Virus record (IMG/VR): IMGVR_UViG_3300027320_000006
Location: 28,359 to 92,358 of that record
Length of the DNA: 64,000 nucleotides
From: a virus
Reading direction: 5' to 3' (one strand)
Below the pieces are notes generated by a model, which searched no databases, was not told where the DNA came from, and was given only the letters and a program-made list of their open reading frames with translations. Positions 2,544 to 36,968 of this stretch are shown one piece after another (positions within the stretch are counted from its first letter, which is position 1; every line of letters begins with the position of its first letter). The position numbers and the translations under genes are program-made.

Positions 2544-2584
2544 AGTGTAACATGGAAAGAGGGAGACTGCAAGCAATCTCCCTC
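2544..2584 (-). promoter_or_regulatory. Promoter with -35 box inside a palindrome
   Basis: TTGCAG (complement of 2567-2572), 17 bp, TACACT (2544-2549). The -35 lies in the loop of a perfect 8-bp inverted repeat GAGGGAGA/TCTCCCTC (2559-2566 and 2577-2584), directly after the rIIB stop. There is no U-run, so this is a poor terminator and may be an operator. Confidence 0.65.
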
Positions 2585-2592
2585 GAAATTCT

Positions 2593-3864
2593 TTATGCGT
2601 CTACTTTATATTGCAGAAGGATATCGAAAATATAATCTGAATCGTCATAGATGGAATCAATATATTTTAATACTTCTCCCATTTGAACAGACTCGAAATC
2701 TTTGTATTCCTTTTCCAATGCGTTCTTCAGCTTAACATATTGTGCTTCATCAAGGTTCTTTAATGTAGCCTTCATATCAATATGAGATGATAGGTCTACA
2801 GTAATCTCCTCGTAAGAATCCTCATCCTCATCATCCTCGAATTCCTCGGAGTCTTGTTCTTCCGGCTCGAATTCTTCAGGGTCTTGCTCCTCGAATTCTT
2901 CCATTAGTTCATCAAAGAGGTTTTCAGATATAGTATCTTTTAATACACCCAGAGGCATTACATCTTCTGTCGGGGATATTTTTTTAATATCTTGTACTGC
3001 TTCATCTTCTCCCCATTTGTCAAGAAGATTAACAACATCGGATACAGATATTACATCCATCATTAATGGTTTGTTTTCCCATTTCTGATTAACATAAGTA
3101 TCATTGTCTGTTTCCAGATATGAATCCTGAATTTTATTTTCATCCAAGGTTACATTATATTCTTGTGTAACCTTATATTTACAGGTACGCAATTTCTGGA
3201 AATTACAATCTGTTGGAATACTTACAACATCAGCAGGGTCGATTTCCACGATGAGCAGATGACCGCCTTCAGGCATAAAGTCTTTGGCGTAATCAAATGT
3301 CCCTGCATGGAAGCCGTGGGAGCATCCTACGTCCTTGTTATCATCGACCTTGTTACGAGGCATTTGAAGAGTATTACCAACCGTATTATTAAACGTTCCA
3401 GTATGACAATCGGTGTAATTTGCTCTCACTGCTTTGTAGGCTTGAATTGTGCCATTGGATGTAATGGGCAAATTCCTATGCTCTAAGAATGTATACAATT
3501 CATCCACTGCTCTTTTGCTAGGATTTAATTGTAGTCGGGTCATGAACTTGAAAATCGGTGTACAGTCGATATTATTAGCCATGAGATTAATAATACGAGA
3601 TGCGATAATGCCGTTTACCATTTCCCCATCGATTGTTACATTGCCGTCTTTAACAATAATATTCTCATATTGTGCGTAGAGGGAATTAAACTTAAGAGTA
3701 GGGTTGAGAACGAATTTCAGTTCCTCCCAATTCTTTTCGGAGAGAAACTTGATAGCATTACGAAAGTTTACGTTCTCCGCTGTAATGGTGTACTGTTCAG
3801 AATCAATGAACACGGTGAGGAATCCGGATGATGGGGCGGGATTACAAGTGAATGAAGGTTCCAT
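2593..3864 (-). CDS. rIIB: rIIB-like protein
   Basis: The 423-residue product carries the conserved RIIB core: FLEHRNLPITSNGTIQAYKAV at about 126-146, TG..N..G....MPRN.VDD at about 155-175, and GCSHGFHAGTFDYAKDF at about 180-196. It then has the ILVEIDPADVVSIP-like strand and an 'LRTCKYKV' motif. In T4, RIIA and RIIB act together in membrane-associated lysis and exclusion phenotypes whose biochemistry is unresolved. About residues 325-355 form a very acidic Glu/Asp/Phe repeat (EEFE units). It lies immediately after rIIA, as in T4, but has its own promoter and an AAGGAAA ribosome-binding site. Confidence 0.9.
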   Translation of the reverse strand: MEPSFTCNPAPSSGFLTVFIDSEQYTITAENVNFRNAIKFLSEKNWEELKFVLNPTLKFNSLYAQYENIIVKDGNVTIDGEMVNGIIASRIINLMANNIDCTPIFKFMTRLQLNPSKRAVDELYTFLEHRNLPITSNGTIQAYKAVRANYTDCHTGTFNNTVGNTLQMPRNKVDDNKDVGCSHGFHAGTFDYAKDFMPEGGHLLIVEIDPADVVSIPTDCNFQKLRTCKYKVTQEYNVTLDENKIQDSYLETDNDTYVNQKWENKPLMMDVISVSDVVNLLDKWGEDEAVQDIKKISPTEDVMPLGVLKDTISENLFDELMEEFEEQDPEEFEPEEQDSEEFEDDEDEDSYEEITVDLSSHIDMKATLKNLDEAQYVKLKNALEKEYKDFESVQMGEVLKYIDSIYDDSDYIFDILLQYKVDA

Positions 3865-3884
3865 ACTAATTTCCTTTCAAGAAT

Positions 3885-3924
3885 AGTATATCATATGACA
3901 GGAGGGATGCAAGCCCTCCTGTCA
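3885..3924 (-). promoter_or_regulatory. rIIB promoter with -35 inside a perfect hairpin
   Basis: A perfect 11-bp inverted repeat (arms 3896-3906 and 3914-3924) has the loop ATGCAAG. Read on the minus strand, the loop is the -35 box TTGCAT; TATACT follows 16 bp later (3885-3890). The hairpin also immediately follows the rIIA stop at 3932 but has no U-run. Confidence 0.75.
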
Positions 3925-3931
3925 TCATTTG

Positions 3932-5932
3932 TTACATTTCCATTATTTGATTATATATTGAAAATGGGCTTCTAATGTATTGGGAGATAATATTAATCTT
4001 TTCATCCTTCATTAGAACTTCTTGTTTTTCTTTAACAATGTAAGGTTCGTATGGAATATTATAATTAATATACGCTTTTATCATTTTAATATTATGAAGA
4101 GCATTTGCGCTTTTGTAATCATTATCAGCGAAATCAAGCAATTCCATAATATATTTCAATTCAGGATTTGTGATACTAGTATTTGACGTTTTATATCTAT
4201 GAATGGACTTGAATAAATCATCTACACGTTCTGCTTCTAAGAGTTTATTAATCTCCTGTTCATTATTATAATATAGTTCGTCTGCACTTTTCTTTAACGC
4301 TTCTGTAAGACTAAGCCAAGAATCACCTACAGATTTAATATGTTTTGGTTTAACACCGATGATATTTTTAATACCATATTGTTCTAAATCGTTAATAGTG
4401 CTGTTAGTGATATCAAATTTCAATCCGTTGCGTTCAGGGGAGAATCTGGAAATAACAACATAAATTCGCTGTTCATCCAAGTCTACTTCTTTCGCAACTT
4501 TCCAATGGTCGCTGTTAGTACTACCATATCTATTGAAAGAATAATATTCTGCATCTGCCATTGCTACTCTCGGTGTTTTGGATTTGACCGATTGAACAGC
4601 AGGTAAGGTTTTGACATGAACTAGATTTGCTCCAATCATATCTGGACTATTAATAAATTCTTGCGCTTTTGCATCAGATGAGAAATATATTAATGTAGGC
4701 TTTTCACTATCACCTAGATGTTGGATTAATCTTTGTTTAATAGTATATTCTGGAGTACAAGGACTAGCAACATAATAGACTGTATTCGATTGGCAAATAA
4801 TATATTTTTGAATTCTAGCCCGATTAGCAAGAGTACTATAATATACTTTTACTTTCGCTCCGTCTAATGAAAGATTATTATTTGTTATAGTATGAGCATT
4901 ATATTTATAAGACGGAATTCCCATACTTGCAAACGAAACATCATAATAGATTGATTTTGCTTCAAAGATACTACGGCATTTAGTAACCTTCTGCTGTATT
5001 ACTTTTTGCACTTCCACGTTGATATTATTGATAGCGTTGATAATCCATTTTTGGGTTTTATCATTTAATTCTAATGATTCCCTAGACGCTGAATTTGTAA
5101 CATCACCAATTTCTGCTTTAAGATGAATAGTGTAACCGTTTTGGTCTAATATTTTTCTATCATCAGATTCTAGATTAATATTTTCAGTAGATACAGGATA
5201 AGCGATATTTCCCATATGAACGATAAGAGTCGGTTCACCATAGTGCTTTTTAACAATATACCAGTTATTGCCTTCTAGGGTTTTGAATGAAGACTTGAAT
5301 GTGTTAATCTGCCGGACGATATTATCATTATTGAAGGTAGGAATATTATCCCAATATCGGAAGAAGAAATAACATTTATCAGATAATATTTTAGCGTCTT
5401 GTGCTTTTATTGGGATTGTAATTTCTAATCCAGTTTCATCTGTTTCGGAAGATGAAACGAGCGATACTACACCTTTATTGGATTCATCGATAAAAGCATT
5501 GTATACATTTTTAATACCATTGTGATAAGAGGTAATAAGGAATGTGCTAGTATATGCAAAAGCGGATTTACTACCCAGACCAAGCATACCTACTTGATTA
5601 TTTGTATTTCGCTTTGTAGATTCGCCATAGGATGCAAAGACATTTTTAATATCATCATCGGACAAACCAGTGCCATAATCACGAACTACAAACTTACCAT
5701 CGCCCCAATAAGACGGTAGGCTAATGTTGATAGGCTTTGTAATACCAGAAGCAACATGAGCATCTAAGGCATTCGTGCTGTATTCACGAATAATAGCCAT
5801 TATCTTATCAGAATATAGTTGTCCCCTGAGAATTGAGAAAATATGCGCTGTATTCTCTTCTTTAATGGAGAAAAATGTCTCTACGCTATTGTTACTACGA
5901 ATAATAACATTGTTGGTTGTTTCTGCTATCAT
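3932..5932 (-). CDS. rIIA: rIIA-like protein, GHKL ATPase fold
   Basis: The 666-residue product starts with a GHKL-type ATP-binding domain: N-box 'REYSTNALDAH' (E50, N54), the 'RDYGTGL' G1 box (D85, G87, G89), and a glycine-rich lid 'VGMLGLGSKSAF' at about 113-124. This is the RIIA arrangement. The rest (about 200-666) is the alpha/beta and helical region typical of RIIA and shows no other domain I can name. The start has AAGGGA 7 nt upstream and a TTGCAA/TAATAT promoter. It pairs with rIIB downstream. Confidence 0.9.
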   Translation of the reverse strand: MIAETTNNVIIRSNNSVETFFSIKEENTAHIFSILRGQLYSDKIMAIIREYSTNALDAHVASGITKPINISLPSYWGDGKFVVRDYGTGLSDDDIKNVFASYGESTKRNTNNQVGMLGLGSKSAFAYTSTFLITSYHNGIKNVYNAFIDESNKGVVSLVSSSETDETGLEITIPIKAQDAKILSDKCYFFFRYWDNIPTFNNDNIVRQINTFKSSFKTLEGNNWYIVKKHYGEPTLIVHMGNIAYPVSTENINLESDDRKILDQNGYTIHLKAEIGDVTNSASRESLELNDKTQKWIINAINNINVEVQKVIQQKVTKCRSIFEAKSIYYDVSFASMGIPSYKYNAHTITNNNLSLDGAKVKVYYSTLANRARIQKYIICQSNTVYYVASPCTPEYTIKQRLIQHLGDSEKPTLIYFSSDAKAQEFINSPDMIGANLVHVKTLPAVQSVKSKTPRVAMADAEYYSFNRYGSTNSDHWKVAKEVDLDEQRIYVVISRFSPERNGLKFDITNSTINDLEQYGIKNIIGVKPKHIKSVGDSWLSLTEALKKSADELYYNNEQEINKLLEAERVDDLFKSIHRYKTSNTSITNPELKYIMELLDFADNDYKSANALHNIKMIKAYINYNIPYEPYIVKEKQEVLMKDEKINIISQYIRSPFSIYNQIMEM

Positions 5933-5952
5933 AATAAAATCCCTTCACACAT

Positions 5953-5980
5953 ATATTACCACATATGCTACACATTGCAA
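5953..5980 (-). promoter_or_regulatory. rIIA promoter
   Basis: TTGCAA (5975-5980 complement), 16 bp containing TGTAGCATATG, TAATAT (5953-5958). It is nearly identical to the DUF2786 promoter at 2155-2182. Confidence 0.75.
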
Positions 5981-5988
5981 GGTAGGGA

Positions 5989-6019
5989 CAAAAAAAGAGA
6001 GACATATTATTGTCTCTCT
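5989..6019 (-). terminator. Intrinsic terminator of the uvdE-6026 gene block
   Basis: The minus strand reads AGAGAGACA-loop-TGTCTCTCT followed by seven T, directly after the stop at 6026 and just before the rIIA promoter. Confidence 0.85.
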
Positions 6020-6025
6020 TATAAT

Positions 6026-6388
6026 TTAAAAGTTATCTATAAACTGGTCAACATCACCATAGTCTTCTACTATTTTATTTTTCCAATTATTGTATGTTTT
6101 AATACAGGCTTCTGCTAGCATATGTTCATCTACTTGTATTGCTTTTGCCAATTGTTTAATATGATTTGCGTTCATCGTTCCTCTTGATAAAATTGTTAGT
6201 AGATTATGATAAGATATAACGTAGCCATTCTGTGTAATAACATCGCATACAGAAACGTTATTATAATTTAATTCACGAACTCTTTGGTTATAAATTAATC
6301 TTACTCTATTTAGTTTAGCATGAGTTCCGATTCTTTCAGGTTGTGGTTTAGCACCTTTTGAATTGTAAGTGATATAATTATTTCCCAT
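6026..6388 (-). CDS. Small protein with possible HTH region
   Basis: 120 residues. Residues about 75-112 (ISYHNLLTILSRGTMNANHIKQLAKAIQVDE...) resemble a Cro/XRE-like helix-turn-helix in spacing, and the N-terminus is Arg/Lys-rich (PERIGTHAKLNRVR). A DNA-binding role is plausible but not proven. It overlaps the upstream gene by 11 bp and ends the block before a strong terminator. Confidence 0.65.
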   Translation of the reverse strand: MGNNYITYNSKGAKPQPERIGTHAKLNRVRLIYNQRVRELNYNNVSVCDVITQNGYVISYHNLLTILSRGTMNANHIKQLAKAIQVDEHMLAEACIKTYNNWKNKIVEDYGDVDQFIDNF

Positions 6389-6614
6389 AGATTCCTGTTT
6401 TCTGATTATATTCTATTGATTCAAGACCAATAGAGTTTAGTATAGATTCATTAATAAAATGTTCTTTATTATTTGAATCTAATTTTACTACACCTAAGCA
6501 TGGGAGATATAAATTCCCACATTCATCTTCTAACATAACATTCCCATTTTCGTCTTTATGAGGTTTTAGATTAGACTTCATAGTTCCAGCCACTAAGAAT
6601 TTGTATTCTTGCAT
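6378..6614 (-). CDS. Hypothetical small protein
   Basis: 78 residues beginning MQEYKFLVAGTMKS; the 'F.V.GTM' opening recalls the small beta-rich protein at 10030. No domain is recognised. It sits 6 bp after the upstream gene and overlaps the next, so it is translated within the same transcript. Confidence 0.65.
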   Translation of the reverse strand: MQEYKFLVAGTMKSNLKPHKDENGNVMLEDECGNLYLPCLGVVKLDSNNKEHFINESILNSIGLESIEYNQKTGIYGK

Positions 6615-6620
6615 AGTGTA

Positions 6621-7157
6621 TCAAATTTCTGGATTTATTTCAATATAGTTATTTGGTAATATTCTGGAGTATGTCATATCTAAGTTTAAATTATCATATT
6701 CGATAAAATTGAATAGATTAGATAAGTTGAATATTAATTTATTATTCTTTATATTGCTGTTTGTTTTAGATAAATAATGTTTGTTAGGCATTTCTATTCT
6801 ACAATAAGCGGTATATTCTTCTGTATCATCGTCTTTGTATCCCACACCAATAATAGCAACACCGTCTGCTTCTTTTTCAAATGCGGTTAACTGCATCATA
6901 TTTACAGATAATTTTGTTGCTTCTGTGGATGACAAATCTAAATCTGGTAATGCGAAGACAGATGATTCATTTCTATCGCCTAAACCTAATATTGCTTTAT
7001 GTTCTTTTAACAAGAAGAAAGCAACAGTGGGGAATAAGCCTGACCCGCCTATTGTATTTAAAATAGGAGAGACTGCCCATCCCCAAGGTTCATTATTTAA
7101 TCTATCATATAATTCTTTTAATGTAATATCCACATTAGAAATTCCAATATGTGTCAA
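6621..7157 (-). CDS. Hypothetical protein
   Basis: 178 residues, mixed alpha/beta. The segment 'LYDRLNNEPWGWAVSPILNTIGGSGLFPTVAFFLL' (about 16-50) has one moderately hydrophobic patch but no clear transmembrane helix. No family is recognised. It overlaps the upstream gene by 23 bp, so its start is translationally coupled. Confidence 0.65.
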   Translation of the reverse strand: MTHIGISNVDITLKELYDRLNNEPWGWAVSPILNTIGGSGLFPTVAFFLLKEHKAILGLGDRNESSVFALPDLDLSSTEATKLSVNMMQLTAFEKEADGVAIIGVGYKDDDTEEYTAYCRIEMPNKHYLSKTNSNIKNNKLIFNLSNLFNFIEYDNLNLDMTYSRILPNNYIEINPEI

Positions 7158-7356
7158 AATGGATTCTAGGAATTACAATATTAACATTCTCACCATCCAC
7201 ATTGCTATAAAGAGAACAGGAATCAAAAGTCATCCTATTTCGAATCATCATATGGAGATTATTATCTTTGTCTCTGAATGAAATAGATTGTGTCTGTAAA
7301 CCTTCATTCTTATTTACGATATCAAAAGATTTTAACTGCGAGATTACTTTATCCAT
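7135..7356 (-). CDS. Hypothetical small protein
   Basis: 73 residues (MDKVISQLKSFDIVNKNE...), predicted as a small beta-rich protein. It overlaps uvdE by 8 bp and the next gene by 23 bp. No recognised domain. Confidence 0.6.
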   Translation of the reverse strand: MDKVISQLKSFDIVNKNEGLQTQSISFRDKDNNLHMMIRNRMTFDSCSLYSNVDGENVNIVIPRIHFDTYWNF

Positions 7357-8245
7357 TGTTTTTCCTCAACATATCCAGTATAGCATAGTCTTTACTCTTA
7401 AGCTCTACATCAAACATTACATCTTCATCATAATGTGTAGGTAAATGCTCCGCCATATCCTTGTGCGCTCTTGTACCGTTCTTTCCTTCACTGTAATGGA
7501 ATAAAGGCTGAACTGTCCAAGTAGAAAGAGCATCATAAAAAGCATCATAATAAGATGTTCCATGATTTAACATTTCGTGATGTAAATTATCAAATGTTAC
7601 TGGAATACCGTGAGAAGAATAAAAATATTTCTTTAGATTAGCAACAGTCCAAGTATTACCTGTATCATTATTTTCTAATACAAGTCTATTCTTTACACTG
7701 TCAGATAACTTATTATAATTATCCATGAATGTTTTGGCTAATGCATCTGCTTCGCCTTCTTTTCGTACATGGATATTAAGTGGATTATAATACGTTTGGG
7801 ATAATTCTAATCTATCAAATATCTCCCCATGAAATTCCAAATCAACAATAGAATGATTTACTTTCACAGGGTCATCAGAAGTAAGAGTAATATATTCTGA
7901 TGGATGAGCAGAAACACGAATACCTGTTTCTTTAATAGTTCTTTTTAATTTATCTATCTCATACTTAATAAATCCATAGTTAGGCAAATCTTCTAAATTT
8001 AACATAACATCAGGATGCTTAATTACTGGACATAAATCAGAAGACAAACGATAACCTTTAATACCAGAAGAAGAACAATGCTTTACTATCTTCTCAGCAA
8101 CAGAAAAATTATTACTTATTATAGAAGATAACTTTTCTAATGATTCCTCTCTCGGTTTGGAAGAAAAAGATTTATATGTCATGGTGCGGAATTTATATCC
8201 CTGTTCAGCCAAGACATTAGATATACAACACAAGGAGAGGTTCAT
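7349..8245 (-). CDS. uvsE: UV damage endonuclease UvdE/UvsE
   Basis: The 298-residue product matches the UVDE TIM-barrel family along its length: 'YRLSSDLCPVIKHP' (about 65-78), 'IRVSAHPSEYITLTSDDP' (about 108-125), 'LVLENNDTGNTW' (metal-site Glu), 'VTFDNLHHEM' and 'FHYSEGKNGTRAH' near the C-terminus. UVDE nicks 5' of UV photoproducts in a metal-dependent reaction and would give the phage its own light-damage repair. An extended -10 (TGATATAAT) ends 5 nt before the ATG at 8245 with no Shine-Dalgarno sequence, so it is predicted leaderless. Confidence 0.92.
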   Translation of the reverse strand: MNLSLCCISNVLAEQGYKFRTMTYKSFSSKPREESLEKLSSIISNNFSVAEKIVKHCSSSGIKGYRLSSDLCPVIKHPDVMLNLEDLPNYGFIKYEIDKLKRTIKETGIRVSAHPSEYITLTSDDPVKVNHSIVDLEFHGEIFDRLELSQTYYNPLNIHVRKEGEADALAKTFMDNYNKLSDSVKNRLVLENNDTGNTWTVANLKKYFYSSHGIPVTFDNLHHEMLNHGTSYYDAFYDALSTWTVQPLFHYSEGKNGTRAHKDMAEHLPTHYDEDVMFDVELKSKDYAILDMLRKNNG

Positions 8246-8256
8246 AAGGTATTATA

Positions 8257-8340
8257 TCACCGCAATCTAGATTTCAACCTAGTAATAACAAAAAGTATAA
8301 CAATTGTTACAATAATATCAAATAAAATAATATACATCAT
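8257..8340 (-). CDS. Possible 27-residue membrane peptide
   Basis: A short frame (MMYIILFDIIVTIVILFVIT...) is one hydrophobic helix ending in a Lys/Arg-rich tail. It fills the gap between the 8347 gene and the uvsE promoter. No ribosome-binding site is visible, so the call is weak. Confidence 0.3.
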   Translation of the reverse strand: MMYIILFDIIVTIVILFVITRLKSRLR

Positions 8341-8346
8341 TGTGAA

Positions 8347-8595
8347 TTATTTCTTCTTAAAAAAATAGTATCCGCCTAGTTGTTTGTGTTCTACCCCAAT
8401 AGAATCTAGATATATAAAAAAATCATCTTTGGATTTTTCGATTATATTTACTCTAGGATAGTCTGCGATATTTTCATCAATAAAATATACTTGACAATGA
8501 ATCTTAGCATTCTCAGAGATATAAGTTTTTAATGATACGAAATTCTTAATCGGGTTTAAGGAAGATAAAATTAATACACTGATTATAGGCAACAT
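8347..8595 (-). CDS. Hypothetical small protein, predicted leaderless
   Basis: 82 residues. The first 15 are hydrophobic (LPIISVLILSSL), followed by a small alpha/beta domain ending 'GGYYFFKKK'. A perfect TATAAT (8602-8607 complement) lies 6 nt before the ATG with no Shine-Dalgarno sequence, so transcription should begin at the start codon. No family is recognised. Confidence 0.55.
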   Translation of the reverse strand: MLPIISVLILSSLNPIKNFVSLKTYISENAKIHCQVYFIDENIADYPRVNIIEKSKDDFFIYLDSIGVEHKQLGGYYFFKKK

Positions 8596-8625
8596 ATTTA
8601 AATTATACCTTGTTCTTTTAGTTCT

Positions 8626-8847
8626 TTAACTTGCTCGATTTTTTTTGTGTTCGTCATTAATTTTTTCAATTGCATATCTTTCTGCTACTCTTCTTGTTTG
8701 TAATTGTAGTTGGACATATCTCTCGCAAGTCTTAACTGTCTTGGCTGTTTTTAATGTATAGCCGAATTGGTCTTTGACTGCATATCCATCTTCCATTTTA
8801 TAAACATAGAAGCCATCAGCCATATAGATAAATTTTTCAATCTTCAT
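8626..8847 (-). CDS. Hypothetical small protein
   Basis: 73 residues from MKIEKFIYMADGFYVYK. The start at 8847 was chosen because GAGG is 6 nt upstream. An N-terminal two-strand element ('FYVYKMEDGYAVKDQFGYTLKTAKT') precedes a charged C-terminal helix. It overlaps the end of the upstream gene by 11 bp. Function unknown. Confidence 0.6.
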   Translation of the reverse strand: MKIEKFIYMADGFYVYKMEDGYAVKDQFGYTLKTAKTVKTCERYVQLQLQTRRVAERYAIEKINDEHKKNRAS

Positions 8848-9034
8848 CTGCATCCTCGAAATAATCTGATTCAATTAGAGAAGAAGATTTTAATTCTTCC
8901 ACAATACCGGGATTTTGGAATAGCCCGTTACGAAATGCTCTAATAATTAAATCTTTAGTTTCGTCATCATACTCTTTTGAAAGTTCATCTCTCAATCGTT
9001 CTGACATTGCTGATATCCACTTAAGGTTTTCCAT
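8837..9034 (-). CDS. Hypothetical small helical protein, predicted leaderless
   Basis: 65 residues (MENLKWISAMSERLRDELSKEYDDE...), helical, with an acidic C-terminus. The promoter at 9040-9068 has TATAAT ending 5 nt before the ATG, so the mRNA is predicted to be leaderless. First gene of a two-gene unit with 8626. Confidence 0.65.
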   Translation of the reverse strand: MENLKWISAMSERLRDELSKEYDDETKDLIIRAFRNGLFQNPGIVEELKSSSLIESDYFEDADED

Positions 9035-9039
9035 GGCTT

Positions 9040-9078
9040 ATTATAACATATGATAAGGGGAGATGCAAGCATCTCCCC
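9040..9078 (-). promoter_or_regulatory. Strong promoter whose -35 lies in a palindrome
   Basis: TTGCAT (complement of 9063-9068), 17 bp, TATAAT (9040-9045). The -35 lies within the inverted repeat GGGGAGATGC/GCATCTCCCC (9057-9066 and 9069-9078). It is the same design as at 2544-2584 and 3885-3924, and no U-run follows. Confidence 0.75.
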
Positions 9079-9086
9079 AATATCTT

Positions 9087-9296
9087 TTAGTCTTCTTGTT
9101 GGGTCAGTTCACCGTGAAGACATACACTATAGACATAACCATCATTAGTGTCCATTGCTTCATATTTATTTACTACAACATCAAGAAGGTTAGTCTCATT
9201 AAAAGCATCAGATGTGTCAATAGAGAGGACACAATCAACGTCTCCATACTCTTTTTTAATTTTCTGGAGTTCTGCGATAAGTTTACTCAGCGTCAC
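9087..9296 (-). CDS. Hypothetical small protein
   Basis: About 69 residues (V/MTLSKLIAELQKIKKEYGDVDCVLSIDTSDA...). The pattern 'ELQ.I...YGD.D..LS' resembles small phage proteins of unknown function. The start is uncertain: I chose the GTG at 9296, which overlaps the upstream stop and has GGAG about 10 nt before it. Confidence 0.55.
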   Translation of the reverse strand: MTLSKLIAELQKIKKEYGDVDCVLSIDTSDAFNETNLLDVVVNKYEAMDTNDGYVYSVCLHGELTQQED

Positions 9297-9936
9297 TTTC
9301 TTCACTCTCCTCAAATACTTCAGCCCATTCAGCCATACCGCCCCATTTACCACATTCTACGGCTTCTCGAAATGAACCATAGCAACAGGTTATTTCAAGT
9401 TTGCCATCCTTACAGGTAAACTCATAATGGTTATCATTTTCAATAGAACCCGATACCATCTCGAATACAACATTAGGATACAGTTTAGACAATCCTTCTA
9501 CAAATTTCTCTGGAGTATCCCAAGGACTATTGAAAGAATAAATTACTGTATTGAAATCAGGTAGTTTTTTTACTATAACTTGAGAAGCATCCCACTTGAC
9601 ACCCCAATTATCAACAGACCAATCGTACCAGTTAGTGAATCCAGTAGCGATTTGTGCTTGTTGATTCTTGAGAGCCTGTTGTGCAATACTTGTAAACAAA
9701 GAATGACCACTGTTGATAATTTCAGTGAGACCCATTGCTGTAGAATTTGTTTCCCGATTGTAATCAAGAATCAATGCATTTACATTAACATCAGGACTTT
9801 GTGTTTCGCTCAAAATCTCAGGCATAGGGAAGAAAGAATGATATAAATTATCTTCATCTACCTTGCTCATAAAAGAATCGCACTCTTCCTTAGTTTGGAA
9901 GATGCAGGTTAGTTCGTTCATTACCCAGTTCGGCAT
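9283..9936 (-). CDS. Api92/YubB-like ferredoxin-fold protein
   Basis: The 217-residue product begins MPNWVMNELTC and contains 'WGVKWDAS' (about 110-117) and 'YSFNSPWDTPEKFVEGLSKLYPNVVFEM' (about 132-159). This is the layout of the DUF1281/YubB ferredoxin-like family common on phages and plasmids; no enzymatic role is established. The start has TAGGAG 6 nt upstream and a TTGCTA/TACTAT promoter. Confidence 0.75.
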   Translation of the reverse strand: MPNWVMNELTCIFQTKEECDSFMSKVDEDNLYHSFFPMPEILSETQSPDVNVNALILDYNRETNSTAMGLTEIINSGHSLFTSIAQQALKNQQAQIATGFTNWYDWSVDNWGVKWDASQVIVKKLPDFNTVIYSFNSPWDTPEKFVEGLSKLYPNVVFEMVSGSIENDNHYEFTCKDGKLEITCCYGSFREAVECGKWGGMAEWAEVFEESEESDAE

Positions 9937-9968
9937 TTTATTCTCCTAATCAAAATCACCAACAAAGA

Positions 9969-10024
9969 ATAGTATCACCTGTTACATACGATAGCAAGAA
10001 AAAGCCCAGATTATTTTCTGGGCT
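9969..10024 (-). promoter_or_regulatory. Terminator of the 10030 gene fused to the 9283 promoter
   Basis: On the minus strand a stem AGCCCAGA/TCTGGGCT with TTTTTC (9997-10024) ends the upstream unit. It is followed at once by TTGCTA (9992-9997), 17 bp and TACTAT (9969-9974). Confidence 0.75.
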
Positions 10025-10029
10025 ATATT

Positions 10030-10266
10030 TTATTCGCTAAACTCTGCTGAATCATAACGAACATTTTTAATATCATGTTTTTCCATGTCGTCATATTGGT
10101 GTAACATTTCATATTCACCATTAGGACTTTCAGCAACTAAACATACCTGAAGCATATACATTTTATTATTAAACTCAACTGCATATAATTGATTTAAAAT
10201 ATCTTGATGAAAAACTGCATCATCAGGAATTTCCATAGTGCCGGTAACTGAAAAATTAATCTTCAT
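10030..10266 (-). CDS. Small beta-rich paralogue (b)
   Basis: 78 residues (MKINFSVTGTMEIPDDAVFH...YDSAEFSE). It is clearly related to the neighbouring 10256 product: both open with 'F...(T/F)E(I)PD(D/N)(A)V.H', and both end with an 'IK(N/H)(V/I)R..S' strand. A recent tandem duplication is likely. Function unknown; a small oligonucleotide- or ligand-binding beta-protein would fit. GAGGTAG precedes the ATG, which overlaps the stop of its paralogue. Confidence 0.7.
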   Translation of the reverse strand: MKINFSVTGTMEIPDDAVFHQDILNQLYAVEFNNKMYMLQVCLVAESPNGEYEMLHQYDDMEKHDIKNVRYDSAEFSE

Positions 10267-10507
10267 TATTCTCTACCTCTATTGTTGAATTTACTCGAAT
10301 ATGTTTAATTTCATATTCACTAACAGACCAGATATCATTAGGAAACTGAATCAATTCTTCTGGATTATTAACATCCACTTCGACACAATTAAAGTTTAAT
10401 TCAGGTTCAAATACTACGCCTTCACATTCGAATATTCCGCCGTCATGAATTACAACATTATCTGGTATTTCAAACTCTGCTGTAAAAACCACTCGCATTT
10501 TTCTCAT
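10256..10507 (-). CDS. Small beta-rich paralogue (a), predicted leaderless
   Basis: 83 residues (MRKMRVVFTAEFEIPDNVVIHDG...), paralogous to the next gene. A TATATT box ends 5 nt before the first ATG, with TTGCTA 18 bp upstream and no Shine-Dalgarno sequence. First gene of a two-gene unit. Confidence 0.65.
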   Translation of the reverse strand: MRKMRVVFTAEFEIPDNVVIHDGGIFECEGVVFEPELNFNCVEVDVNNPEELIQFPNDIWSVSEYEIKHIRVNSTIEVENNED

Positions 10508-12764: not shown

Positions 12765-13220
12765 TTATAATATAGCACTTAACTTCTTCCTAGCTCGAAA
12801 TACTTTAACCTTAACTGTATTATAATTAAGATTCATATTAACAGCTATTTCGTTAAGACTATATCCCTCTAACAAACATAACATTATATCACGATCTATA
12901 GACTCGAATTTTTCAATCTCGATTTTTAAAGATCTTAACGTTTCCTTAGCTTCCACTTCTCTCGAAATATTTACATCATTATTTATAAGATAAGCTTGCT
13001 CTAAATCTACAATGCTAAGTTTCTTAATCCTGTAATAATCTATATAAGCGTTTTTAGCCATCATTTTAAGATAACCTCGAACATTATTTACTACAGGTTT
13101 ATTAATCCAATAATTAATTAAAACACTTTGAACTAAATCTTCAGCTAATAATCTATCCCTCGAAATAAGAGAAAGATAATTAACCAAATAATTTCTATGT
13201 TCTAAATAATCTGGCTTCAT
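12765..13220 (-). CDS. ECF-type RNA polymerase sigma factor
   Basis: 151 residues. Sigma region 2 is seen at about 5-65 ('RDRLLAEDLVQSVLINYWINK' ... 'VRGYLKMMAKNAYIDYYRIKK'). Region 4 at about 95-150 reads 'FESIDRDIMLCLLEGYSLNEI' then 'LNYNTVKVKVFRARKKL', a helix-turn-helix. Length and the absence of regions 1 and 3 fit the ECF group. No anti-sigma factor is adjacent. It may redirect host polymerase to a subset of promoters; its target is unknown. Confidence 0.85.
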   Translation of the reverse strand: MKPDYLEHRNYLVNYLSLISRDRLLAEDLVQSVLINYWINKPVVNNVRGYLKMMAKNAYIDYYRIKKLSIVDLEQAYLINNDVNISREVEAKETLRSLKIEIEKFESIDRDIMLCLLEGYSLNEIAVNMNLNYNTVKVKVFRARKKLSAIL

Positions 13221-13228
13221 CTAACACA

Positions 13229-13435
13229 TTATACCATGTCTTCTAATTTGTTCTTCTCGAATTCTTGAATTAATTTATTGCCGGTATATTTACTCTTCGA
13301 AAAGAAAAATATTGTATGGTTATCAAATCGCAAATCATAAATATCATTCTTATCTTCTTTACCTTTTAAATACTCGAAAAACTCATTAGTATAGTTATAG
13401 TATTTTAATTTAATACTATAACTATAAACAGTCAT
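13229..13435 (-). CDS. Hypothetical small protein
   Basis: 68 residues from MTVYSYSIKLKYYNYTNEFFEYLKGKED. The start at 13435 sits 11 bp after the upstream stop with a weak GTAGAG. Aromatic-rich alpha/beta; no family. Confidence 0.5.
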   Translation of the reverse strand: MTVYSYSIKLKYYNYTNEFFEYLKGKEDKNDIYDLRFDNHTIFFFSKSKYTGNKLIQEFEKNKLEDMV

Positions 13436-13445
13436 CTCTACTATA

Positions 13446-13943
13446 TTAATCAAGTTCTTCAATAACCTGGAACACATATTTAAAAGCATGTGATCTAACA
13501 ACAATTTCTTCTGGATCCTGGATATTAAGTCTCTTACCGTGATACCCTAGTAAGTTAACAATAGGTGGAACAGAAGGCGCTACTCCCGTTTGATGCTGAT
13601 ACTGTGCCCATGATTGATATAAATTAGCATCAGATCCAAGGTTAGCAAATAAAATATCCTTCTCATTCTCGAAAGGAATACTATATCTCTCTAACATATC
13701 ACTTAACTCATTATAATTAGATTCTTGATATCTTGCTAAACTACTCGAATTTTCCCTAGCATATCCAATTAATCTATCATCCTCGAAAACAGCATAAAAC
13801 TCACCTGTACTAATATTAACAGGCTCCCTTAACGCTTCTACTGTATCTTCCATTACTTCTACGTTTTCTACAGTTTCAACATCTTCGAAAACTTCCACAG
13901 CTTCTACAGTAGTCTCTTCAACAACTTTCTTTAATCTACCCAT
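13446..13943 (-). CDS. Hypothetical protein with Glu/Val repeat
   Basis: 165 residues from MGRLKKVVEETT; GGGGGA lies 4 nt before the ATG at 13943, which decides the start. Residues 8-40 are a Glu/Val/Thr repeat ('VEAVEVFEDVETVENVEV'), a likely extended linker. A globular part of unknown family follows. It contains three CTCGAA words. Confidence 0.65.
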   Translation of the reverse strand: MGRLKKVVEETTVEAVEVFEDVETVENVEVMEDTVEALREPVNISTGEFYAVFEDDRLIGYARENSSSLARYQESNYNELSDMLERYSIPFENEKDILFANLGSDANLYQSWAQYQHQTGVAPSVPPIVNLLGYHGKRLNIQDPEEIVVRSHAFKYVFQVIEELD

Positions 13944-13953
13944 ATTATCCCCC

Positions 13954-14529
13954 TTATAATCTTTTTTGTCCAATAATATTAATCTGCACCAAAGCACCAT
14001 TTAAAGTTTGATCTATCTTAGCTGGTAAAGAATAATCATAACCTTCATCTTGTAATACAGCTTCTATTAGATTAACATTATACGAATTTAATAACGGCTC
14101 TAAATCCTCGGAGATATTATAATGATTAATTCTATTAACATCACTTCTCTTATAATTACTCGAAAAAGAAAATTTGTGATCTAGATTAAAATTACTCGGC
14201 CAATTACATTTCTCATATAACTCGAAATCTGGAATTGTAATATATAAATATCCACCAGGCTTTAAAATTCTACACCAATTAAATAAACTTGTTCTAACAC
14301 TCTTCATATGCTCTAAACAATGACTCGAATAAACAAAATCATAAATGTTGTCTTTCTGATCTTCCATAAAATTCGCATCACCCTGCTTAAAATCATAACT
14401 CTTAACAGTGCCATCTAATACTACTAAAGGATCAGGACCAGAACCAATATCAATTCCCTTACCATTTAAATACTTCTCGAAATGACACTCTCTAATTCTT
14501 AAATTATAACTCTTACTTGTTTCAGTCAC
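13954..14529 (-). CDS. SAM-dependent class I methyltransferase
   Basis: 191 residues. Motif I 'GKGIDIGSGPDPLV' (about 24-37), 'YDFVYSSHCLEHM' (about 63-75), and 'CRILKPGGYLYITIPD' (about 86-101) match the Methyltransf_11-type fold. The substrate cannot be read from the sequence. It overlaps nrdG by 4 bp, so the two are translated together. Confidence 0.85.
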   Translation of the reverse strand: MTETSKSYNLRIRECHFEKYLNGKGIDIGSGPDPLVVLDGTVKSYDFKQGDANFMEDQKDNIYDFVYSSHCLEHMKSVRTSLFNWCRILKPGGYLYITIPDFELYEKCNWPSNFNLDHKFSFSSNYKRSDVNRINHYNISEDLEPLLNSYNVNLIEAVLQDEGYDYSLPAKIDQTLNGALVQINIIGQKRL

Positions 14530-15092
14530 TTTACTCGAATTCCTAACTTTATTAATTCACTATTTATAAGAGGAAAACCAGTAACGTAATCAAAACCTAC
14601 TTCTACTTCTTGATCAATTAAAAGATCTTTAACCTTACTCGAAAAATAAATTATATTCTGATTACTACTGCCTCTTAAACCATCTTTAGTTATACAATCC
14701 TTAACAAATCTACCGTCTATCAAAACGTCTAGATAATTTAAACAATCCCTCATAGTATTATCACTATTAATCTCATCTATAGTAAAACCAGAAAATACAA
14801 TAATCCCATCCTTATAATCTTTCTTATATAACTCTTTTAATAATTCTAATAGGAATTCAGATTGCTCGAAAGGATCACCACCAGAAATAGTAATGCCAGT
14901 AGGATTAATCTTTTCTATTATGGTAATTAAACTTTGAACAGTATAAAGAGAAACAGGTCTATCGTTCCAAGTCTCAGGATTAAAACAACCGAGACAACCT
15001 TTAGAACAACCCTGAAACCATAATACAAAACGATTTCCAGGACCATTAACAAAAGAACTCGAAATATAAGAATGGATATTGCCGGTTAACAT
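14526..15092 (-). CDS. nrdG: Anaerobic ribonucleotide reductase activase NrdG
   Basis: 188-residue radical-SAM protein. 'FVLWFQGCSKGCLGCFNPETW' has the CxxxCxxC cluster (C29, C33, C36), and 'GITISGGDPFEQ' follows at about 82-93. The opening 'NGPGNRF...GC...CFNPETW' is the NrdG pattern rather than QueE or PflA. NrdG installs the glycyl radical on NrdD. No nrdD is in this window, so the partner would be elsewhere in the phage or supplied by the host. It implies growth of the host without oxygen at least part of the time. First gene of the operon; no Shine-Dalgarno sequence seen. Confidence 0.88.
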   Translation of the reverse strand: MLTGNIHSYISSSFVNGPGNRFVLWFQGCSKGCLGCFNPETWNDRPVSLYTVQSLITIIEKINPTGITISGGDPFEQSEFLLELLKELYKKDYKDGIIVFSGFTIDEINSDNTMRDCLNYLDVLIDGRFVKDCITKDGLRGSSNQNIIYFSSKVKDLLIDQEVEVGFDYVTGFPLINSELIKLGIRVK

Positions 15093-16120
15093 AAAAAGTT
15101 GCAGGTATAAAACAAATTAGGATAGAATACATATATAGACACTTCTACATAGGTAACAATATTATACAAAATATGTCTAGCAGGTATCTAGAATATACAG
15201 TGTAGAAATAATAATATATAATAAGGGACATTAAAAGAATACAAAAATATATAGAAGAAGAATAGGGCTTATGATTTAGCTTCGAAATTCTATAAGATTA
15301 GTGGATATTTTAATCGAACGTAAATAAAAATAAACATAAGGCGGAACAACATATAAGTAAGTATTGAAGAATAGGTTCGGAAATATACATAAAGCTTAGA
15401 GGAATTATTTGAAGCTACACAGAATGTTAACAATTACAGTTAATTTTATAGTTTAACTGTCGATTATTGTTTGACGTTTGAATGTGTGCTGATTAACCGT
15501 CCCGTATTAAAAAGCCACTTATTCGTTATTATTGTATTATTTCATAGATATTTATTTGTTCTTATTTATTCTATTATTTGTTTTTTCTCTATTGTATTAA
15601 TTTATTTTTTTTTCTTCATTTGTAGTATATTGTTTTTTGTTTTGTAGTATTGGATAGATTTTATTTTATTGTCTATTAGTTATTATTCGTTCTTAGGTAA
15701 TAAATATAATCTTTTAGAATATTCTTTTTCTCATATAGGTTAATTTGTATTTCTTCTATATAGTAAATTAAATATTCTCCCTTATATGTAATTATTTATT
15801 CTTCTCTTATAATTGCTCGAAAATCTTATAATCACTCGAAAATCTTTATCCTCATAAGCTAAAATGTATCAATAGCTATTATCAATCGTTTCCTATGTGA
15901 TTAGTTAGTAGTAATGTGTTTTATTGTTATTAGTAGAGAACCAAGTGAATTTCTTTTATTTTCTTATATAGGGAAATTAATTATTGTTATATTGTAATTG
16001 CTCGAATTTTTGTTTTTTGTTATATGGGTTATTTTGTTTCTTTCTTATGTAATTGGGTTTTAGTCTCCACTCAGTCTCCATTGTGATTTTTATTTTTATT
16101 CTTTTTTTCTATATAGTATT

Positions 16121-16315
16121 TTGAATTTGGGTTATCTATGTCATTTACTATCCACTGTAATTTTATTAATTATCCTATATAAGAATTATATTTTTACGTT
16201 TAGTCTAATTATCTTATTTTTCATACTTCCCAGCTCCTTTCTAATCCTAAAGCTAATCTGTATAATTTTTTTATTATATTTCGTTTACGGTCTCTTGTTA
16301 TATTTCCTTATGTGA
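16121..16315 (+). CDS. Doubtful hydrophobic ORF
   Basis: 64 codons from a TTG, almost all Leu/Ile/Phe. In T-rich DNA such frames arise by chance, and no ribosome-binding site is seen. The only support is an ATGTGA-type overlap with the next frame. Confidence 0.15.
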   Translation: MNLGYLCHLLSTVILLIILYKNYIFTFSLIILFFILPSSFLILKLICIIFLLYFVYGLLLYFLM

Positions 16316-16566: not shown

Positions 16567-18942
16567 TTATTCTATTTCTATTTTGTTAGGTAATATTTTT
16601 TTATGTTCTATTGGGTTTTCTATGTCGCCGGATCTTTGTGTGATATTGATTTTATTAAAGTAAGCTATGTCTAGTATTCTTTGGCTTAGTGTTATTGGTC
16701 TTGTATCGAGTATGTGTATATTTCCTGATGTTGCTACGTATTTGATATTATTATCTTTTAGGTATTGATATATTGTTATTTTTGGATCTTGTATTATGTC
16801 TTGATATTTAGTTTTGATATTAGTGGATATTTGATTTTCTTGACCCCATTCAAAGCATTCTCGTAATATTTTAAGTAATCTTTGTTTTGCGTCTGTTCTT
16901 ATATATAGGTTGATTAGTTCATATAGATAATTTGTTTCTATGTCATTTATAATCAATCTCATAATTTCATCATATATTTTTTGGTCAGCGTTAGGTGTAA
17001 AGTTTTGGTAGAGGTCTGTTTGTTTTAATTGTTCTGTATTGAATTCTTCTTTAAGTGCTTTTTGGAATAGATCTATTTCTAGTGTAATTCGATCCATGCT
17101 TGTAAAGTCAGTTTTAGTTTTACCTAGTTCATATATATATTTGCCTTGTTGATAATTTGAATTTCTAAATGCGGCGAATAATTTATATAGGTACAATTCT
17201 TTATCTTTTGTGTTATCTGGTTTATCGTTTAGGTTTATACTAGAATAGTCCATATGGAATAGTTTTTTCTTACTTGAGTCGCCTTTATATATTCCGGTTT
17301 GGTTTTTGAATTCTCTTTCGTATACTTTTGGTGATAATGTTTTAATATTTGTAGCTGGTGTATTATTATTTCCTATAAATACGAGGTCACCTAATTCTGC
17401 TGCAAATTGTTTATATATATTTGCTAGATGTATTTTAAAGAAGTCTTGTAATATTATATTGTCTTCAGCTACAGTTTTTATTTGTGATTCTATGCTGTCT
17501 ATTGTGTATGTATCTTCAGATTTCCATATATAGGATTGCACGATTATTTTATTAGAGTCGTCGAAGATAGCGAATATCCAGGAGTCCATATTTTGTGCAG
17601 TGTCCCAAACCACGGATTCAGCTTCTCCATTTATTTTTTGGCAGCAGTCGGTTATATTTCCAGCAAAGAGATATGTAGGATTATTTTTAGGTAATAATTT
17701 AGCTGTGTATACTTTATCGTTTTTTGTATCTGGGTATATTATATTAATATCTCTTATAGGTATTTGATTTTTATTTTCTAGGTATAGATTTTGTAAGCTG
17801 ATGAAGTTTTTAGCATTAAAATATGGTTTAGTATAGTTATAATACATTTTGAAGAATGTTTGATCTTTTATATCTTCTGGTTTTAATTCTTTTATTAATT
17901 TGTCCATAGCTATAGCTTCTTCTGTAGCTTTGGGTGTTGATGTTCTTATTAGGTCTCTTACAGCTATTTTTTTCACTTGTCCATCTTTAATGACATTTAT
18001 AATTTCGTCTAAATGTTGTGATGTTGTTAGTGTGCTTCTCAGTGTTTCTTTTTTTATTCTAGCAGTATATTCTTTTATTTGTTTTTCATCTGGTTGTAGA
18101 TCTGGGTAATTTATTCCTTGGCGGATTAATTTATCTTTAATTTCTTTTAGGGGTACAGGTGCTTTTAAGTTATCGAGCACATATTTTTTTCTTTCTTTGT
18201 TAAATGAGAAATTATTATCTTTTATATTAGCTCCAAAGAAGTGAACAGCGGTATATGGTCTTGTGTTATAGTAAGGGCTGTAAGGATTTTCCCATATTTC
18301 TTTTGTATCGGTGTTTAGTGTTTTAGCTGTTTTGATTAGGTATCCCATATCTTCTGGTACACTTGCTCCAGATAAATTTTGTTCTTGTAATACGTTAAAC
18401 AATTCTGGTATTATTGGTGAGTTGAAGAATATGTGGTTTTTATTTTCTTCTGTATATTTTTCGTTTATATCTTTTGTTAATGTAGATGCTAGGATAAGGA
18501 ATTCAGGTAGATATTTTTCTTTGCCTTTATTTATTTCTTTTATGTGATTAAAGAATTCTAATGTTAATTTTTTTGCATCTTGTATTTTATTATTCGTGTA
18601 TGTTTCTCTAGGATTATATTTTTGTGTTATTAGGTCAGTTATACCCATTTTATTAATATCTAGTAATAATGCTGCTGACAATTCATCTGGGGATAGTAGG
18701 TCTGTTATTTCTTGTTCTGGGTTAGCAATACCGTCTAGTAATATATGATGAATAGATACCTGGCTTGATATAGAGAATACATATTTTGCTTGTGATAATT
18801 TATCTTCTATTTTTCTTATTGTTTGTTTAGCAATTTCTTTTTGTTCTTGAGATATATTAAGGTCTCTAATTTGGAAATCAAAACCTTGAATCATCGTGTG
18901 TAGATTTACTAGTTTATTTTGCATCTGGCTATATCTGTTCAT
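16567..18942 (-). CDS. Large protein with a CCQ-type domain
   Basis: 791 residues, largely helical. A domain at about 425-520 reads 'LFAGNITDCCQ', 'SWIFAIFDDSNKIIVQSYIW' and 'YTIDSIES'. The same motifs in the same order occur at about 1093-1175 of the 33222 protein, so the two are homologous there. The layout (paired Cys, strand-rich core, D-S-x-E) recalls a GNAT-like or PcfJ-like fold, but I cannot assign it. The N-terminus (MNRYSQMQNKLVNLH) has no signal peptide. A large virion or injected protein is plausible. It is divergent from the 18990 gene. Confidence 0.7.
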   Translation of the reverse strand: MNRYSQMQNKLVNLHTMIQGFDFQIRDLNISQEQKEIAKQTIRKIEDKLSQAKYVFSISSQVSIHHILLDGIANPEQEITDLLSPDELSAALLLDINKMGITDLITQKYNPRETYTNNKIQDAKKLTLEFFNHIKEINKGKEKYLPEFLILASTLTKDINEKYTEENKNHIFFNSPIIPELFNVLQEQNLSGASVPEDMGYLIKTAKTLNTDTKEIWENPYSPYYNTRPYTAVHFFGANIKDNNFSFNKERKKYVLDNLKAPVPLKEIKDKLIRQGINYPDLQPDEKQIKEYTARIKKETLRSTLTTSQHLDEIINVIKDGQVKKIAVRDLIRTSTPKATEEAIAMDKLIKELKPEDIKDQTFFKMYYNYTKPYFNAKNFISLQNLYLENKNQIPIRDINIIYPDTKNDKVYTAKLLPKNNPTYLFAGNITDCCQKINGEAESVVWDTAQNMDSWIFAIFDDSNKIIVQSYIWKSEDTYTIDSIESQIKTVAEDNIILQDFFKIHLANIYKQFAAELGDLVFIGNNNTPATNIKTLSPKVYEREFKNQTGIYKGDSSKKKLFHMDYSSINLNDKPDNTKDKELYLYKLFAAFRNSNYQQGKYIYELGKTKTDFTSMDRITLEIDLFQKALKEEFNTEQLKQTDLYQNFTPNADQKIYDEIMRLIINDIETNYLYELINLYIRTDAKQRLLKILRECFEWGQENQISTNIKTKYQDIIQDPKITIYQYLKDNNIKYVATSGNIHILDTRPITLSQRILDIAYFNKINITQRSGDIENPIEHKKILPNKIEIE

Positions 18943-32956: not shown

Positions 32957-33235
32957 GTGTTTGATTTTCTTCTTGCTAAACCGTCTACAGCTCACAATAA
33001 AATAGAATATACTAATATGTCTACAAAATTATGCTGCGGGACAGATGGTCATGAATATAAAGTAACGTCTGTTGTTGGGCCTTTTAGAAATAGATTGTCT
33101 GAACTTGGATTTACTAAAAATACCATAGTTATGATAGTGAGACATATAAATAATAAAGGCCCGATAGAAATACTTATCAGAGGATATTACATTATTTTAA
33201 GACATGATGAAGCAGAATGTATTATCGTTGAATAA
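32957..33235 (+). CDS. FeoA-like domain protein, predicted leaderless
   Basis: 92 residues from a GTG. 'RNRLSELGFTKNTIVMIVRHI' (about 44-64) and 'GPIEILIRGYYIILRHDEAECIIVE' (about 68-92) follow the SH3-like FeoA pattern: (R)L.E(L)G then GP(I).(I)..(G)..(I).LR..EA. FeoA works with FeoB iron transporters or in DtxR regulators; neither is here. The 33-residue N-terminal part contains 'KLCCGTDGHEY'. The 3' end overlaps the convergent gene by 14 bp. Confidence 0.65.
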   Translation: MFDFLLAKPSTAHNKIEYTNMSTKLCCGTDGHEYKVTSVVGPFRNRLSELGFTKNTIVMIVRHINNKGPIEILIRGYYIILRHDEAECIIVE

Positions 33236-36200: not shown

Positions 36201-36968
36201 TTCAGGAATTTTAGAATCAAATGCAGACGCATCATTTAAGTAAGCTTGAAGTTCCGATGAATTTTCAAAATAATCAGCTAAATCATAAAGATTCATAAGA
36301 TCATTAAATATTTGACCTAAATTTTCTGGATTAGAATGATAATATAAATATTCTGAAAATAGTTTTTTAGCATGACCATCAGGTAAATATTTAACAGCTG
36401 AATCAATTTTATATTGTTTGTCAAATCTTATAATTTGTTCTGGCTTTGAATATCTTAAAGATAATAAAAGCTCATCTTCAGCAAATTTAAGATTACCTTT
36501 TAGAAATTGATCAGTAAATTCATACAATGATGAGTCTGGAATTTTATAGAATGCTTGAATAACATTTTCAACTATAACCCTTAAATAATTTCCAAGGCTC
36601 TTATTTTCCGGTTTATTTACTCGATCATATAGCTGTTTGATAGATTCATTGATGGTATTTCCTGAGCTCCAAGCATTATAAAATTCATCAAATAAATCAT
36701 GATCTTGTTCACTAATTTGAGATTTTAATTTAGAGGATTGTTCATCAGCTAAAGGATGGTCTACAATATATTGCGCATGTTCATTTTCAGGTGTTTCTTC
36801 AATAATATCTTCAGTCTCTTCATTTTGTTCTTGTTGTGCGATTTTGAGCATTAAATTCGCATATCTGTCAAATTTATCTGAGTAAGAATAATCACCAATA
36901 GAATCATACATATTTGCTATTTTGATACTTACAATTGAAGATGTGTTGACGAATTTGATTTGAGACAT
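33222..36968 (-). CDS. Giant protein with CCQ-type C-terminal domain
   Basis: 1248 residues from MSQIKFVNTSSIVSIKIANM; AGGTAA lies 4 nt before the ATG at 36968. The N-terminus has the motif 'IANMYDSIGDYSYSDKFDRYANLMLKIAQ' (about 18-46) shared in pattern with three other proteins. The centre is helical and repeat-like. At about 1093-1175 'MFIGNYAGCCQ', 'SSFFIIEDQKGQMILGSYVW' and 'ICFDSFET' match the 16567 protein. A virion or injected protein is proposed. Confidence 0.7.
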   Translation of the reverse strand: MSQIKFVNTSSIVSIKIANMYDSIGDYSYSDKFDRYANLMLKIAQQEQNEETEDIIEETPENEHAQYIVDHPLADEQSSKLKSQISEQDHDLFDEFYNAWSSGNTINESIKQLYDRVNKPENKSLGNYLRVIVENVIQAFYKIPDSSLYEFTDQFLKGNLKFAEDELLLSLRYSKPEQIIRFDKQYKIDSAVKYLPDGHAKKLFSEYLYYHSNPENLGQIFNDLMNLYDLADYFENSSELQAYLNDASAFDSKIPEMNKEEIVNFKKAGLSFLPGKNNYQEQLNIRCQDNKIYYFIKNIIFFRGIQEPVQISNNVLERLTAHYSPEQVRVIFDNIKSLMRDSDAEHIIRINTILPFDQAIAKYKELQHDGTELNLYYKQVLGKDYELFNLEPDQVNQTLYLVLIEADKEKAEIYIGSLSDLLNNYVRSAITKSNAKYFLDYITQFDRDYVQQYLKTYYLSTYIKFRPDRLQEIHPIEILKHNNPDIVLAYHKSNPEFSSLSVDDIEKYSEFYKNNSNAVDIPYKDLEPHIANKNVQNYILFGSTDPNKAKIADKIYKANSYRSREIAARFKDSDIIDISKIGLLNISNPRFAHLSLTELNLLSDKVNHFETLERIKLVKDSFKNPRNTAYHNFEEGSADYNKLLYILFHNYDLRGRNPQLLIKLLDLHAKDEMITELGLDDVNHMIRNRVACDLPNINVSDAKIHVRNRKTIIHDIEVKVYNKYHTAIKAQNTEIAKYPINQILDFVTKYDNALNTDEDAESYLPKGVTANQAGDALQAINDGHGLLIYLNRESMIKFYKLIMDKIIGINPDYSDSTTKLMPIYAATAATADINYYLPDVITEDFIKEITSTQIPNKLNIDFSKAEVRLNSNTQLEYVNESMALLRLFNKSLPNFLDKFIIASGKDYGKIFKFSEMDDYVQSIVIHSAAQKFDKIDPGPGLSDYIIQQMNNKNLFQLAKVARMWNKEINIADEKMSIASKSLVSELSKMYDVSELSDLIKTSSSLIFFSKIEVQEPRLAKEFDKHFEFSDKPDFHDHLGMDENDRLLKMYQNIEILYKHRTNFPQPEWSDIEEEYYGYTARFLHRNDTRGMFIGNYAGCCQHPDSYAATLALDGQISDKSSFFIIEDQKGQMILGSYVWEDDNGNICFDSFETIGSKLFGSVEAQTIVDKLIYDVAKKMNTNVNFGSQSSGAYRPRQFKKDTKTPFKNNARPWENPYVKTILDLNSKQINTKDLYVADSESQIIIIQR

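Follow-up and report, generated by a model that had tools for sequence, protein, structure and literature searches.

The window analysed here, a stretch of 64,000 nucleotides, comprises positions 28,359-92,358 of a 92,358-base virus record (the phage hereafter called G0), and a near-identical longer contig reaches 165,921 bases. On the minus strand, the window carries a uvdE-like gene (7,349-8,245; PF03851), a gene for a sigma-70-like (ECF-type) factor (12,765-13,220), a conserved gene of group c26 (13,446-14,000), a class I methyltransferase-like gene (13,954-14,529) and an nrdG-like radical SAM gene (14,526-15,092; PF13353); rIIA-like and rIIB-like genes are also found around the array described below. 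Upstream of nrdG lies an AT-rich noncoding stretch (15,093-16,142; 24% G+C). Across this region the hexamer CTCGAA (TTCGAG on the minus strand) forms a dense plus-strand array (12,794-16,006) of 21 copies with none reversed, accompanied in the same direction by a sparser part of four copies (8,855-10,299) and a satellite group of five (2,582-2,895) in and adjoining the rIIB-like gene. The acidic tail of the rIIB-like protein (2,836-2,895) has repeated EEFE-like residues that use TTCGAG despite the AT-rich genome.

The first-pass annotation had reported 19 CTCGAA copies at 12,903-16,006, all in one orientation. Both the excess and the orientation (TTCGAG, 0 copies) are confirmed, the exact count being 20, plus one at 12,794. 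Dinucleotide shuffles of this segment gave a mean of 0.70 copies and a maximum of 4 (n = 2000), and the nine further same-direction copies that the annotation had placed at 2.6-10.3 kb were recovered at 2,582-10,299. A or T follows 19 of the 20 copies (A 13, T 6, C 1) rather than every one, and the earlier phase figures (8, 7 and 1, plus three noncoding copies) need correction, although all three phases and noncoding copies do occur: the 21 copies at 12.7-16.1 kb are distributed 6, 3 and 7 among the phases, with five outside ORFs of at least 100 aa, two of which (13,256 and 13,373) fall in a 91-aa ORF. Right of 16.0 kb, where no copy had been noticed, there is one, reversed, at 46,216. Over the whole record CTCGAA occurs 43 times forward and once in reverse in 92 kb, versus 13:16 for the reversed control word. 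No other 6-mer of the window is as strongly clustered when a third-order Markov model supplies the background (21 in 4 kb versus 0.57 expected; Poisson -log10 p 25.1). The array is regional and above a higher-order model rather than evenly spread, the opposite of what the first-pass annotation had named as a refutation.

Relatives were found via uvdE, with 67 loci in viral contigs encoding a relative of this gene. Five lineages of giant phages, with contigs of up to 358 kb and a uvdE identity of 70% or more, have the same array, and it is present at all six uvdE matches at or above this limit, from five phages; pooled, the arrays of the five lineages hold 190 forward copies and one reverse copy in 71.5 kb. 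No comparable array was seen at the other 61 of the 67 loci (at most 67% identity, some being short partial matches); three of these, L084, L086 and L087, lack polarity and contain 13-22 copies per direction. In a relative at 49% in nrdG (L005 and L006), CTCGAA is again the top hexamer with the same polarity (-log10 p 14.3 and 12.2), and three further lineages are strongly enriched (46:1 in L056, 35:0 in L057 and 30:0 in L058). Array extent ranges from 3 to 30 kb, and where sites are densest there is about one per 160-215 bp. Among other polar hexamers, even spacing marks those of the checked loci L088, L130, L132, L133 and L080 as repeats, and those of L026, L002 and L011 are mostly in a single phase, while TGTTTC of L019 keeps no phase and is weaker. 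The largest relatives are G7 (358,269 bases) and G011 (300,536 bases), and the gene set of G7, including a bacterial-type DNA polymerase III alpha subunit, RecJ, a UvsX-like recombinase, GroEL, ribonucleotide reductase, portal and terminase, indicates giant tailed phages. The contig L145 (8,994 bases), from a bin assigned to Candidatus Kapaibacterium, reproduces the G3 phage at 98.4% and has a CTCGAA count of 12:1; its presence there may reflect contamination or may hint at the host.

Orientation inside and outside the arrays differs within the same genomes. The G7 array is confined to 168-198 kb, and outside arrays both orientations are present, with block-oriented versus reversed copies at 10:29 in G7, 3:7 in G1 and 12:28 in G011 (left of 290 kb). 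Inside arrays only two reversed copies were observed versus 14.1 expected, so that the reversed word ranks fifth in depletion among 359 hexamers with its composition; an order-3 Markov model lowers the expectation to 9.4 versus 2 observed (three records summed).

The enrichment does not follow from the encoded proteins. When codons were permuted with proteins and codon usage kept, six sets with 15, 16, 25, 29, 18 and 20 observed sites gave means of 1.9, 4.0, 4.5, 6.3, 2.8 and 3.0, respectively, so that permuted sequences hold 4-8 times fewer sites (for the window's sparser left part, 4.0 versus 16 observed). Site density is 3.2-7.4 per kb in noncoding DNA versus 1.5-2.1 per kb in leftward coding DNA of G3, G7, G8 and G9, and the order is reversed in the window's dense part (leftward coding 8.0 versus noncoding 3.7 per kb). 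Individual positions turn over between phages. The nrdG-like gene has four sites in the window and its orthologs four in G3, four in G7 and three in G8, occupying 12 alignment columns of which only three are common to two orthologs; uvdE has no site in G0, G3 and the bacterial-bin copy but 3-5 in each of G7, G8 and G9, and one column of nrdG and another of uvdE align TTCGAG of one phage with TTAGAG of others. Genes of groups c14, c15 and c26 hold 0, 0 and 3 sites inside the G0 array and 1, 2 and 2 inside that of G3, versus none in G7, where they lie outside the array. The methyltransferase-like and sigma factor-like genes also carry sites; the positional equivalent of the latter in G3 likewise matches a sigma factor, and no tblastn match to the window's sigma gene was obtained in G7. 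The best explanation is that selection maintains the number and direction of sites and not their exact places. The first-pass view that neither a protein repeat nor codon preference is responsible is upheld by codon permutation, noncoding copies, positional turnover and conservation in relatives.

The word itself is sharply defined. Among one-mismatch words pooled over the five lineages (71.5 kb), CTCTAA (83:18) and CTCGAT (26:1) are skewed and the rest are balanced or weakly skewed. On the TTCGAG strand (207 sites), A is found at -5 in 57%, R at -4 in 73%, W at -2 in 83% and T at -1 in 66%, C being essentially absent from the last position; the preferred plus-strand context is CTCGAAAWNYT, with CTCTAA and CTCGAT as weaker forms. 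Sites are never spaced less than 14 bp apart (204 intervals), as expected for a bound protein. We detected no helical phasing at periods of 9-12.75 bp, and the distribution of sites around start codons is flat, without association with gene starts. The latter argues against a promoter element of a sigma factor, since no fixed distance to start codons is kept. RNA folding did not place the motif in loops; control positions were paired slightly less often than the motif. Two phages conserve a terminator-like hairpin that has TTCGAG in its loop and lies close to where the dense array ends (L056 13,999-14,024; L057 6,811-6,836).

In G0, G3, G7 and G8, whose contigs reach it (that of G9 ends short of it), the array takes in roughly 0.8-1.5 kb of noncoding DNA upstream of nrdG, which in the window includes the sites at 15,816, 15,835 and 16,001. 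The minus strand of the window's stretch is A-rich with C exceeding G and then turns T-rich near 15.5 kb, so the skew change suspected at 15.1-16.0 kb is seen locally as a sharp switch; the switch was measured in G0 and G7 and read by eye in G3 and G8. Because the G0 gene upstream of the stretch (16,567-18,942) is also leftward, divergent transcription does not account for the skew flip there. Two direct repeats, GTGGAGAC and ATGGAGAC (16,063-16,081, minus strand), lie just upstream of the first site. The corresponding stretch of three other phages (including L057 536-625) has GTGGAGAC-type repeats as well, one to four in number, that of G3 having a single degenerate copy, ATGGAGAC. The sequence TATCGGGGCT is close to the composition switch in G3, G7 and G8 and is absent from G0. 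We use the term origin-like, rather than origin, because G7 shows neither a minimum nor any other extremum of cumulative GC skew at the noncoding stretch, and because G7 sites extend about 5 kb to the right of it with unchanged direction. Origin iterons are long, helically phased repeats within a compact origin; the sites themselves are poor candidates for them, considering their 6-bp core, the lack of helical phasing and the spread over 3-30 kb. A packaging end is not favoured by the G7 terminase gene, at 58 kb and about 130 kb from the array, although this distance is not decisive.

Several other features were observed in or near the arrays. Inside the G7 array, a D12-class adenine methyltransferase gene adjoins one for a PD-(D/E)XK nuclease (L069 16,948-18,235, minus strand), and the window's phage also encodes a D12 methyltransferase, inside its sparser array (L003 396-1,253). 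Within or near its array the G3 phage (L050 1,559-13,027) has a group I intron and six tRNA genes, none of which was found in the window. The tRNA T-loop resembles TTCGAG, but in G3 one site touches a tRNA end by a single base and none lies in a T-loop. Unrelated-looking proteins, encoded at window positions 33,222-36,986 (minus strand) and 50,348-51,841 (plus strand) and at 192,768 and 195,233 of G7, share an N-terminal segment (approximately LLxNLGxYxLSDKLYKIAxL, judged by eye) that is perhaps a sorting tag for the virion or a compartment.

As most sites lie in leftward genes, either DNA or RNA could be the molecule that is read. The main rival explanation, which we regard as unlikely but far from negligible, is an RNA signal on long leftward (probably early) transcripts, in which WWUUCGAG would be the target, through binding or cleavage, of an RNA-binding protein or an endoribonuclease similar to T4 RegB, or would act in pausing or antitermination of RNA polymerase. 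The prevalence of sites in leftward genes, the occurrence of TTCGAG in the loops of some terminator-like hairpins, and the fact that one and the same gene marks the end of the array in all of G7, G8 and G9, with site-free neighbours as for a transcription unit, agree with it. In opposite-strand genes within arrays, however, eight sites in five genes keep the direction of the DNA strand and none that of the gene, all eight being antisense to their genes. These genes are located at 189,514 (one site; homolog in G8 and G9), 190,012 (two sites; methyltransferase by Pfam) and 192,768 (two sites) in G7, at 2,663 in G8 (one site) and at 101,036 in G3 (two sites; ortholog in G0); a further G7 gene at 195,233 has no site, it and that at 192,768 having been kept on N-terminal resemblance by eye alone, and in G0 two supported genes of this orientation likewise lack sites. 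The count was restricted to ORFs with homology, a Pfam match or the N-terminal resemblance; two of the others (G3 122,961-123,395 with two sites and G8 102-302 with one) also follow the DNA strand. Outside arrays, sense and antisense copies number 17:16 in G7, 5:5 in G1 and 5:10 in G3, and the equality in G7 suggests that an RNA word is not avoided elsewhere. Neither the slight excess of pairing in folded RNA nor the absence of a link to gene starts favours an RNA reader. T4 RegB sites act at the RNA level, GGAG near start codons in early mRNA; they resemble the array as a short word concentrated in one transcript class, whereas the array shows no such preference for gene starts. Matches to phage RNA polymerase beta (PF00562) were not found in G1, G3 or G7 by a search that divergent copies might escape. 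Taken together, the opposite-strand sites, the depletion of reversed copies, the orientation bias outside arrays and the lack of loop presentation favour DNA as the molecule read; none of the four is decisive, as read-through transcripts and intramolecular pairing could mimic the first two. The polar DNA signal of the first-pass annotation is therefore partly borne out, as polarity at the nucleic-acid level with DNA the more probable molecule, and the suggested processes (recombination, packaging or partition) stay conjectural.

We consider a polar array of DNA guide sequences, of the KOPS or Chi kind and read by a DNA-tracking protein near the origin-like region, to be the leading interpretation, with a probability of roughly 45%. 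CTCGAA on the plus strand would be recognised by a protein that tells the two directions of the duplex apart, most likely a motor or nuclease tracking along DNA (following the logic of KOPS/FtsK or Chi/RecBCD-AddAB) or the replication machinery, which may act around the noncoding stretch upstream of nrdG and leftward from there. A DNA-tracking or loading process fits best because direction is read, place is tolerated, copies are many, gaps are at least 14 bp and reversed copies are disliked. Enrichment, polarity, regional limits, conservation in five lineages, turnover and independence from coding are direct observations in this picture, whereas the origin, the tracking enzyme and the function are inferred. 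The points against a guide array include the skew of G7, the position of most sites in leftward genes, the lower order-3 expectation for reversed copies and the fact that the sites of G7 do not flip at the putative origin, unlike leading-strand signals; reversed copies could also become depleted through pairing that masks the motif within a single RNA.

To our knowledge, this would be the first such array in a virus. Among the papers found on CTCGAA or TTCGAG in phages, none concerns such an array to judge by title and abstract opening, nor does a passage of PMC8112702. The closest known kinds are FtsK orienting sequences, Chi and the EcoP15I sites of T7. A passage of PMC5993296 presents KOPS/AIMS-type sequences as short words with strong strand bias whose orientation flips at the origin or terminus. 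The array shares with AIMS (architecture-imparting sequences) and with the KOPS and SRS octamers of FtsK and SpoIIIE a short, exact, polar word in one direction, with many copies placed regardless of genes; it differs in its 6-bp core, its local extent (3-30 kb rather than replichore-wide), its density of up to one site per about 160 bp and the lack of an observed orientation flip. No FtsK/SpoIIIE match above the cut-off was obtained in G1, G3 or G7, and host FtsK could be the reader. Chi, which alters the activity of RecBCD/AddAB and is over-represented on the leading strand of the host genome, is likewise short, polar and scattered through coding and noncoding DNA, but the array is far denser and regional, and its reversed copies are depleted, for which Chi has no need. 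That the sites are simply host Chi or KOPS sequences carried for host RecBCD/AddAB or FtsK seems quite improbable: the sharp, polar, dispersed and position-independent logic is shared, yet CTCGAAAW is rare in the one candidate host bin, which holds the G3-phage copy (61 versus 244 for the reversed pattern), 15 of these 61 lie on two contigs carrying or resembling phage pieces, and such density limited to a single region is unlike genome-wide Chi or KOPS.

Strand-specific nick sites of the phage T5 type are fewer, genome-wide and of another sequence, and resemble the denser, regional array only in being strand-specific sites in phage DNA. The EcoP15I sites of T7 span its whole genome without regional enrichment and are, like CTCGAA, asymmetric hexamers with all copies in one orientation. 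This orientation is given in a passage of PMC3874151 as the reason why T7 resists EcoP15, and our own count in T7 (36 CTGCTG, 0 CAGCAG) agrees with that account. An orientation bias selected by a Type III-like (or BREX-like) host defence, one that acts on a pair of asymmetric sites in inverted arrangement, would fit the asymmetry of CTCGAA and the scarcity of reversed copies in arrays, but is slightly less probable still, as avoidance predicts few sites rather than a regional enrichment of more than 20-fold, and a single orientation does not hold genome-wide in these phages. A compositional or codon artefact of a region C-rich on the plus strand, or a protein repeat, is scarcely credible despite the negative GC skew and the existence of FE pairs coded TTC GAG, being refuted by the Markov, shuffle and codon-permutation nulls, the strand balance of most one-mismatch words, the noncoding copies and the use of three phases.

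We tentatively suggest, at somewhat lower confidence than the guide array as such, that this clade evolved a polar guide system of its own, in which a regional, continually renewed hexamer array would steer a DNA motor one way from the origin-like locus and thereby serve replication, entry, segregation or recombination. Selection for a one-way word that at its densest recurs about every 160-215 bp, running across genes and opposite strands with its copies renewed, strongly suggests that giant phages possess an unrecognised mechanism. The array offers a testable target, namely the molecule that reads CTCGAA, and a way to learn how a process near the putative origin is directed in a phage genome of about 350 kb.
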